Source: an uncultured Bacilli bacterium (GTDB taxonomy: Bacteria; Bacillota_I; Bacilli_A; RFN20; CAG-826). Taken from it: 64,000 nucleotides of DNA. The stretch spans positions 1 to 64,000 of the forward strand of contig CAJOMQ010000006.1 of NCBI GenBank assembly GCA_905236715.1. Reading direction: 5' to 3'. The position numbers were made by a program, and so were the translations under genes. Positions within the stretch are counted from its first letter, which is position 1. Each line of letters opens with the position of its first letter. This document shows positions 18,632 to 46,991 of this stretch, piece after piece. The notes beneath the pieces are model-generated. The model saw only the letters and a program-made list of their open reading frames with translations, was not told where the DNA came from and did no database searches.

Positions 18632-19669
18632 TTATTTAACAGGGTAACGCTTTTCAATAGCTCTAATCGCGGGGAACAATAACATTAAACCCGCAATCGC
18701 AATACCACCAGAAACTAAAACATACAATAAATTGTATTCTAAGGCATCTATAGAAGTACTGCTCCACAAGGGAAGATGATAAATGACAACGCTAGAAGTT
18801 GTACTACCAATATATCTCACTAATGTGGAAAGCAAACCACCAACAAAAATAAAGAGAAGTGATTTCCATGTAGAATATTTGCTTTCATCTTTTGAAAGAA
18901 TAAGAGGTTTAAAGAATCCTAAAATAGCGACAGAGCCAAAACCAAGTAGGTAATCAAATGGGTAAGTAGCAAATCCATATCCGTCAGAAATACAGGTTAA
19001 TAATCCATATATAAAACCACCGCAAATAAAACCAGTTAGTGGTCCTCTTCTTAAGGCTATAATCATCAAAGGAAGCATTTGTAAATTTACTGATCCACCA
19101 GTTGGAGAGCGGAAGAAAGTTATAAGGTTTAAAACAAAAGCCGCCGCAATTAAAATAGCGTCTTCCGCAATGCCTCTAACTGATTGACTGGAGAAGCTAG
19201 ATAAAGAGATAAAACACATAAATTCAATTGCCAACAAAAAGATACTTACTGCGGTTCCCCAGGCAATACTAGCATCTTTAAAATTCTCCACTAATTCATA
19301 TGCAAAACTTGTAAAAATTTCCTTATTCAAGAACAAAAAACAAACATCTACGGCAATAAAAATTAAGCCAACGGTAACTAAAACATCGTGCACTTTTTTG
19401 TGATTTTGAAAAATATAAGCAAATATAAGAAGAAGCAAAATAATACCAATCAAACAGACAAATAAAACACCAAGCCATGGTTCAGTTATCTTGCCATCAA
19501 ATAACTTGATAATATTAACTTTAAAATAAGTGTCAATTTTATCTTCACCAACGTAAATTCTTGTGCGATAGCTTAAAAGTGGCGCAAACAAAAAACCAAT
19601 AATTGCAAGATTGAGTATAAAAGCAATAATATAGGTTAAGTTTTTCTTAATAAATTCTTTGAATTTCAT
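18632..19669 (-). CDS. thiT: thiamine ECF transporter S-component ThiT with N-terminal membrane extension
   Basis: 345 residues. The C-terminal half (about 165-335) matches ThiT/YuaJ: GGSVNLQMLPLMIIALRRGP followed by GFICGGFIYGLL and a further set of membrane helices; ThiT binds thiamine and works with the shared EcfAA'T module. The N-terminal half adds about four or five extra membrane segments (about 13-33, 62-85, 92-110, 138-158), which normal ThiT (about 190 residues) lacks. I use ATG 19669, four codons inside the track ORF, because GGAGG lies 5 bases upstream. A TPP riboswitch precedes it, which independently supports the thiamine role. Confidence 0.85.
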   Translation of the reverse strand: MKFKEFIKKNLTYIIAFILNLAIIGFLFAPLLSYRTRIYVGEDKIDTYFKVNIIKLFDGKITEPWLGVLFVCLIGIILLLLIFAYIFQNHKKVHDVLVTVGLIFIAVDVCFLFLNKEIFTSFAYELVENFKDASIAWGTAVSIFLLAIEFMCFISLSSFSSQSVRGIAEDAILIAAAFVLNLITFFRSPTGGSVNLQMLPLMIIALRRGPLTGFICGGFIYGLLTCISDGYGFATYPFDYLLGFGSVAILGFFKPLILSKDESKYSTWKSLLFIFVGGLLSTLVRYIGSTTSSVVIYHLPLWSSTSIDALEYNLLYVLVSGGIAIAGLMLLFPAIRAIEKRYPVK

Positions 19670-19797
19670 AAAAACCTCCAAGTATTGTACCTGGAGGACA
19701 TCAAATAAAAAAATCTCCTACGCTTGCATTACCAAGATCAGGTACAAGGTCGAATGGTGCACCATTCCTCTCAGCCGAGTTCACTCAGCTCCCAAAA
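19670..19797 (-). promoter_or_regulatory. TPP riboswitch controlling thiT translation
   Basis: The aptamer lies at about 19714-19797 on the minus strand. It shows the conserved CTGAGA, ACCTGATCTTGG, TAATGCAAGCGTAGGA string and a P3 stem agctgag/ctcggct. The expression platform (19670-19713) carries CCTCCA pairing with TGGAGG, the ribosome site. The segment CAGGTACAA inside that hairpin is exactly complementary to TTGTACCTG of the aptamer (19739-19747), so aptamer folding and ribosome-site release exclude each other. Inference: TPP binding hides the ribosome site and shuts off thiT. Confidence 0.93.
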
Positions 19798-19828
19798 CAA
19801 TATTATGCTTTTATAAATATTAATTCCA

Positions 19829-20506
19829 CTATTTTTGTTTGCACCAATCTATTGGAGACAAGCCATTATTTTTTAAGAATTCATTTGCTTTACGGAAATG
19901 ACCATTGCCAAACCATCCACCATGGTTAGCGGCAAGCGGTGAAGGATGAACACATTCTAAAATCAAGTGATTAGGGTTGTGAAGATATTGTTTTAATTTG
20001 CGGGCATAGCCACCCCAGAGAAGAAAGACAATTGGATGATTTTGTTTATCTAATACTTCTAACACATCATGGAAAAACATCTGGTATTCGGGTATATTAT
20101 GGCTCAATGCTTGATGGGCTCTCACACTTAATATTGCGTTAAGCATCAGAACTCCTTGTTTTGCTAAATAAGTTAAATCACCACTATTTAAATCAAGGCT
20201 TGTGTCATATTCATCTTGTATTTCCTTATAAATATTAACTAGTGAAGGAGGTACTTTAACGCTGTTAGGAACAGAAAATGATAAGCCCATAGCTTGCCCT
20301 GGTTCGTGATATGGGTCTTGACCAATAATAACCACTTTGACGTTTTTTAAAGGTGTCAATTTGAAGGCATTAAAAAGTAATTTTCTAGGCGGGTAACATT
20401 CGAAGTGGTCATATTCGTAATCGAGAAATTTATTTAATTTTTGCGAATATTCCTTTCCTTGAATTGATTTAAAAAATTCGTTCCAAGTTAGAGGTATTTT
20501 ATCCAT
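19829..20506 (-). CDS. ung: uracil-DNA glycosylase
   Basis: Removes uracil from DNA to start base-excision repair. It has 225 residues, normal for family 1. The water-activating motif IIGQDPYHEPGQAMGLSF (Asp about 64) and the minor-groove loop CVHPSPLAANHGGWFGNGHF are both present. The ATG has no ribosome site; TATCAT ends 6 bases upstream. It is divergent from the glycosyltransferase at 20558. Confidence 0.96.
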   Translation of the reverse strand: MDKIPLTWNEFFKSIQGKEYSQKLNKFLDYEYDHFECYPPRKLLFNAFKLTPLKNVKVVIIGQDPYHEPGQAMGLSFSVPNSVKVPPSLVNIYKEIQDEYDTSLDLNSGDLTYLAKQGVLMLNAILSVRAHQALSHNIPEYQMFFHDVLEVLDKQNHPIVFLLWGGYARKLKQYLHNPNHLILECVHPSPLAANHGGWFGNGHFRKANEFLKNNGLSPIDWCKQK

Positions 20507-46593: not shown

Positions 46594-46991
46594 TGGTGGA
46601 GCCGAGGAGAATTGAACTCCTGTCCGAAGATGGTCCTTCCATAACGTCTACAGCTTAGACGATATGAATTATTTAACACAATTTCATCAATCGACAAAAT
46701 CCATTATGCGAGATTGACCTTATTTCGGAAGTGATTAACCAATCAACTTTCACTTCCTATCCTTTTGGTATGACACTCTTACCAGGCGTGAAAGGCGAAA
46801 ACCCTGGGGAATGCTCTGCCCGGCCAATGTGGTCGGATCTCTAACGTCGAGTAGCGATTACGCTAAGCAGAGAGATTGAGCTCTAGGAGCTCTCATATAA
46901 CTGTTGTCAGTTATTTTTCTTTTGATGTATATGGTCATCAGCCAGCTGCAGTTAAGGACTAACACATCCCCGTCGAAACCAATACGACCCC
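46594..46991 (-). ncRNA. ssrA: transfer-messenger RNA
   Basis: About 398 nt. The 5' end GGGGTCG pairs with the 3' end CGGCTCC, followed by ACCA; the T arm is aggag-TTCAATT-ctcct. The internal part holds the mRNA-like domain. The only frame open through it runs to a TAA at ...CTTAGCGTAA. Taking the resume rule seen in other tmRNAs (UARNN before the resume codon), TAACT precedes GAC, giving the tag DNSYMRAPRAQSLCLA after the charged Ala. The tag call is inference. Rescues ribosomes stalled on broken mRNAs. Confidence 0.95.

Follow-up and report, generated by a model that had tools for sequence, protein, structure and literature searches.

The stretch of DNA analysed here (the window) comprises positions 1 to 64,000 of the forward strand of contig CAJOMQ010000006.1, from the GenBank assembly GCA_905236715.1 of an uncultured Bacilli bacterium. 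Its minus strand carries a thiamine pyrophosphate (TPP) riboswitch upstream of thiT, the start codon of which lies at 19669-19667; a uracil-DNA glycosylase gene lies upstream of the riboswitch on the same strand. The covariance model RF00059 matches the minus strand at 19805-19698 over its full length (1-105) with 49.8 bits and an E value of 4.5e-9; as the curated gathering score is 54.3 bits, the aptamer is absent from the default Rfam scan of the window and was recovered by a permissive scan. The aptamer is laid out as ...GGGAGCTGAG..CTCGGCTGAGAG, the P3a hairpin and GACCTTGTACCTGATCTTGGTAATGCAAGCGTAGGAG..., and from 19793 the minus strand reads GGGAGCTGAGTGAACTCGGCTGAGAGGAATGGTGCACCATTCGACCTTGTACCTGATCTTGGTAATGCAAGCGTAGGAGATTTTTTTATTTGATGT, then CCTCCAGGTACAATACTTGGAGG, TTTTT and ATG. 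The ligand-contact motifs CUGAGA (J3/2) and GCG (P4/P5 side) are both present (GGCUGAGAGG, core ACCUGAUC, AAGCGUAGG); together with the PF09515 domain encoded downstream, the model match confirms at the sequence level the riboswitch class named in a preliminary description of the locus, and the aptamer is presumed to bind TPP. It is the sole TPP element in its own 1.29-Mb draft genome. The features of the locus are collected in Table 1.

Table 1. Features of the thiT leader and gene in the window
Feature	Position	Strand	Details
thiT, 345 aa: N-terminal membrane extension of ~165 aa and thiamine energy-coupling factor (ECF) S-component domain	18632..19669	-	PF09515, E 2e-20, residues 168-332
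UUUUU: putative terminator U-tract, also the spacer between Shine-Dalgarno (SD) sequence and AUG	19670..19674	-	directly after the hairpin, then AUG
UGGAGG: SD sequence, in the 3' arm of the hairpin	19675..19680	-	GGAGG 19679-19675, 5 nt, then AUG
CCUCCAGGUACAAUACUUGGAGG: terminator-like / SD-masking hairpin	19675..19697	-	10 bp, loop CAA (3 bases), -13.5 kcal/mol
CAGGUACAA: platform side of the proposed competing antiterminator / antisequestor helix	19685..19693	-	lies within the hairpin, in its 5' arm and loop
TPP riboswitch aptamer (RF00059): P2, P3, P3a, P4, P5, CUGAGA and GCG motifs	19698..19805	-	covariance-model match; P1 pairs mostly absent
GUAGG: P4 3' strand	19717..19721	-	predicted to capture the terminator 5' arm in most relatives; limited in the window to a 4-bp AGGA:UCCU contact
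UUGUACCUG: J2/4 and P4 5' strand, aptamer side of the proposed competing helix	19739..19747	-	complementary to 19693-19685 over 9 bp; covariation with the platform seen in g1, g3, g4 and g9 (see text)
CATAAT: probable -10 element	19802..19807	-	differs from TATAAT at one base; 9 nt upstream of the first GG in P2; consensus match alone

The preliminary description held that a CCTCCA/TGGAGG pairing hides the ribosome site of thiT; these letters are the outer portion of a 10-bp hairpin (19697-19675) that includes the SD sequence, and the claim is borne out. An independent consensus terminator scan returned this hairpin as the only terminator-like site in 19560-19900, where shuffled sequences average 0.1. 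A terminator-like hairpin with a U-tract and a ribosome-binding site (RBS) in the 3' arm of that hairpin are found together in the window, which is the likeness to the dual platform described by Barrick & Breaker 2007 (PMC2258182); there the 3' side of the terminator hairpin contains the RBS, and transcription could be attenuated or, failing that, translation.

The window was compared with 202 TPP leaders from the same bacterial family, representing 35 genera; in assigning the terminator of each leader the hairpin was kept clear of the aptamer and its tail was weighted. The set divides into 99 overlapping leaders (SD in the 3' arm of the terminator hairpin, with the U-tract as spacer to AUG), 86 separate leaders (terminator first, then a distinct SD), 8 without a hairpin, 4 without a clear terminator and 5 unresolved; a ThiT relative lies downstream in all 198/198 leaders with a defined start. 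Separate-type leaders and 16 other window genes with a recognisable SD served as controls for spacer composition. A T-run of at least five occupies the spacer in 76/99 overlapping leaders vs 2/82 separate-type SD spacers (Fisher p 2e-27) and 0/16 of the other window genes; in the separate class the T-run stays with the hairpin (at least four T in 86/86) and the SD spacers are ordinary. From this distribution the U-run looks like a part of the terminator rather than a property of SD spacing in general. The preliminary description had called the switch translational: the SD mask agrees with this, but translational control alone does not sit well with the UUUUU behind the hairpin, and a probably dual mode fits better. 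The window is placed in the overlapping class, for which a dual terminator and SD platform appears more likely than an SD mask alone.

A perfect 9-base complement between hairpin and aptamer, also reported in the preliminary description, is formed by TTGTACCTG (19747-19739) and CAGGTACAA (19693-19685). When the letters of the hairpin region were shuffled, at least nine bases complementary to the aptamer arose in 91/20,000 trials (p ~0.005); taken alone, the match would be suggestive, not decisive. As had been proposed, the hairpin and the 9-bp helix exclude each other because they share bases. J2/4 is otherwise variable (UUGUA, GAACA, GCUCA, GCGUA, GUGCA, GUCGA and others), and changes in the platform that match it are therefore informative. 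Such compensatory changes occur among leaders of the window's own genus (g1) and three related genera (g3, g4 and g9), at J2/4 position -2 (U-A in 5, C-G in 9, G-C in 1), position -3 (G-C in 6, U-A in 2, A-U in 2) and position -4 (U-A in 3, C-G in 3, A-U in 1); the mean helix length in this set was reached by 0/5000 permutations. Duplex energies were also computed for the aptamer strands of each leader, paired either with its own platform or with that of another leader, with permutations. In the 24 distinct overlapping leaders of these four genera, J2/4 and the P4 5' strand pair with their own platform at -10.2 kcal/mol, compared with -8.4 kcal/mol when permuted (0/2000). These results support the competing helix, and with it the OFF logic of the preliminary description, in which the folded aptamer frees the hiding hairpin and the unfolded aptamer captures it; as read from covariation, support for the 9-bp switch is good among the window's close relatives.

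Outside these genera the pairing partner changes. The preliminary description had made the retention of this complementarity in homologous leaders the test of its proposal; the helix is retained in g1, g3, g4 and g9, but most leaders elsewhere lack it and use the P4 3' strand. No signal for J2/4 and the P4 5' strand was detected in overlapping leaders of other genera (z -0.1), in g31 (291/2000) or in separate leaders (z +1.1), while the terminator 5' arm pairs with the P4 3' strand better than under permutation in all three groups, the separate leaders, those of g31 and the remaining overlapping ones (0/2000 for each). One separate-terminator leader of g30 (L061) carries a 9-bp version of the J2/4-P4 5' strand pairing, and many leaders, L005 among them, engage both P4 strands with adjacent segments of the platform (CACCUG:CGGGUG around CGGAGG:CCUCCG), in nested pairings that can largely coexist. 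On this evidence the choice of aptamer strand is lineage-specific; the principle appears to be common and the strand differs. Four g20 leaders, including L017, L083 and L135, show natural compensatory changes within P4 itself, with CCAGA or CCGGA and GUUGG replacing CCUGA and GUAGG. An apparent tandem of two TPP aptamers is seen in a g3 leader (L106, genome G018), the second being degenerate in its P4 region (GGAATTCCATTCGGGTAATGCCGGTGGAGG).

When growing transcripts of the window were folded, the competing helix together with P5 had the lowest energy from length 112 to 120, and at 124, with the 3' arm fully made, the hairpin prevailed. For the full-length transcript the predicted energies are -48.4 kcal/mol in the hairpin state vs -44.9 kcal/mol in the competing state. 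As the hairpin state is the better one at full length, the ON state would depend on timing. Capture of the terminator 5' arm by the aptamer before the 3' arm is made is likewise predicted in 93/99 overlapping and 68/86 separate leaders. The leader is probably an OFF switch that responds to TPP through a dual expression platform; what the sequence shows of it is the aptamer match, the hairpin, the U-tract, the complementarity, the covariation and a conserved architecture. In the absence of TPP, CAGGUACAA in the newly made 5' arm and loop of the hairpin would pair with J2/4 and the P4 5' strand (UUGUACCUG), P4 being opened while P5 remains folded; the hairpin would be blocked, RNA polymerase would continue and the SD would be free. 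With TPP, P4 would be held closed in the aptamer, releasing the arm so that the hairpin forms; the hairpin would then work as an intrinsic terminator, its U-tract running up to the start codon, and would cover the SD of any RNA that is read through.

Were the switch purely translational, the hairpin would merely hide the SD and the U-run would be its spacer. The SD does lie wholly inside the hairpin, and five leaders (L167, L177, L206, L207 and L200) keep an SD-masking hairpin with a U-run that is degraded or absent; a pure U-tract is, however, unlike the spacers of separate-type leaders and of the other window genes, and the nearest overlapping relatives of the window (L002, L049, L005 and L006) retain U-rich tracts, so that this explanation is considered unlikely. 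A purely transcriptional attenuator, in which the SD overlap has no regulatory effect as read-through RNA has already escaped the hairpin, is decidedly unlikely: it can draw on the terminator with a separate SD in 86 relatives, on the dominance of transcription attenuation in Firmicutes according to Barrick & Breaker (PMC2258182) and on the hairpin being favoured at equilibrium, by which the ON state would need to be kinetically trapped, but the SD lies geometrically within the stem and a hairpin once formed should block ribosome loading. That the 9-bp complementarity is incidental, the true competing helix joining the terminator 5' arm to the P4 3' strand, would agree with the family norm described above; in the window this pairing extends to ~4 bp and is no stronger with its own than with swapped platforms (-7.6 vs -7.5 kcal/mol), whereas the 9-bp helix is (-13.2 vs -2.9 kcal/mol), and with the covariation of J2/4 in the relatives this leaves the proposal very improbable.

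Several observations weigh against the dual OFF switch with its 9-bp helix. With a U-run of just 5 nt that gives way directly to AUG, termination may be weak; the two folded states lie ~3.5 kcal/mol apart, which is near the error of the energy model, and P4 is not predicted in the minimum-energy fold of the isolated window sequence. Within g1, 2/6 leaders carry a separate terminator and no such helix. The leaders in the covariation set are partly related by descent, and the permutations ignore shared ancestry; the many distinct matched variants make it unlikely that one ancient coincidence lies behind the covariation.

The 5' end of the riboswitch is unusual in its closing helix. The model columns for P1 are mostly non-canonical in the window, and no antiterminator built on a P1 strand was found there, the supported pairing being that of J2/4 and the P4 5' strand; across all 202 leaders the native P1 partners pair no better than swapped ones. 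P1 was treated as non-defining for the ligand class, being variable and outside the ligand pocket. A TATAAT element with at most one mismatch lies 3-11 nt upstream of P2 in 160/202 family leaders; no good -35 element was found for the probable -10 element of the window. With a -10 element set against P2, the expected transcription start is at P2 or slightly ahead of it, and little or no P1 5' strand would be transcribed; it is hypothesized that this promoter placement curtails P1 in the family. Such a curtailed P1 likely explains the low model scores in the family, where RF00059 matches exceed the cut-off in only 76/224 genomes; the default Rfam cut-off thus overlooks most TPP elements of the family. 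Strict absence of P1 is not claimed, as some relatives clearly possess it: g3 includes leaders with CCGAU/AUCGG (e.g. L009, L011 and L016), 6 to 9 bp of P1 pairing are possible in L002 and L049, which are sisters of the window, and P1 is visible by eye in L226, L236, L239 and L241 from another family of the order. No relevant precedent for a TPP riboswitch without P1 was found in the limited collection of literature searched.

Most riboswitches switch via P1, and eukaryotic TPP riboswitches use the P4-P5 region (Barrick & Breaker 2007, PMC2258182). The window differs from the P1-switching majority in that it would exchange J2/4 and the P4 5' strand, with no P1 evident; it resembles the eukaryotic splicing riboswitches in that TPP would displace an alternative pairing to which part of the P4-P5 region contributes, although the partner there is the 5' splice-site region and here a bacterial terminator / SD hairpin. 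A precedent is the Lactococcus lactis thiT riboswitch RSthiT, in which replacement of a portion of the U stretch directly ahead of AUG led to constitutive expression (PMC8862789). It shares with the window the gene family and a uridine stretch directly before AUG that is a probable terminator; it differs in that P1 to P5 are all reported, with a bit score of 62.4 and no obvious P3a, whereas the window shows a P3a hairpin but lacks a clear P1. For Ef02, the thiT riboswitch of Enterococcus faecium, translational control was predicted, and both translational and transcriptional control were measured (PMC12632268); its likeness to the window is that of a TPP riboswitch before thiT. The window element is therefore a TPP OFF switch of known kind, with a switching strand less usual for bacteria.

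As the riboswitch class and the dual platform are already known, the single case is ordinary and its value is comparative. In ~200 species of one bacterial family the same sensor and target gene are combined with an output device that varies between terminator, terminator with SD mask and direct SD capture. This is a natural series for how riboswitches shift between transcriptional and translational control, and the same series bears on the question of P4-based switching in a TPP aptamer that has no P1. A tentative generalization, less certain than the reading of the window, is that TPP riboswitches in this family of gut Bacilli-type bacteria mostly lack P1, the promoter lying against P2, and that a terminator arm opens P4 via its 3' strand, its 5' strand with J2/4, or both; the platforms within the family would comprise separate terminators, terminators doubling as SD masks and aptamers whose P4 strand is the SD. 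In the 8/202 leaders without a hairpin the start codon lies directly behind the aptamer, although at least one (L173) probably has a misplaced start. The aptamer abuts the thiT start in L023, L047, L052, L053, L101 (g27), L222 (g2) and L085 (g16), where the P4 3' strand GGAGG(G) coincides with the SD (e.g. GCGGAGGGAAAAATG) and there is no separate platform; the g27 leaders resemble the direct RBS burial described for TPP aptamers (PMC2258182).

ThiT itself occurs in the family in three layouts: plain, extended N-terminally by a membrane segment of at least 100 residues (the window type), or extended C-terminally. The N-terminal extension of the window ThiT has no Pfam match. Long as opposed to short ThiT was considered as a cause of platform type and set aside, as there is no clean correlation. 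Elsewhere in the window, a transfer-messenger RNA (tmRNA) gene lies at 46594-46991 on the minus strand (130 bits, E 1.4e-50).
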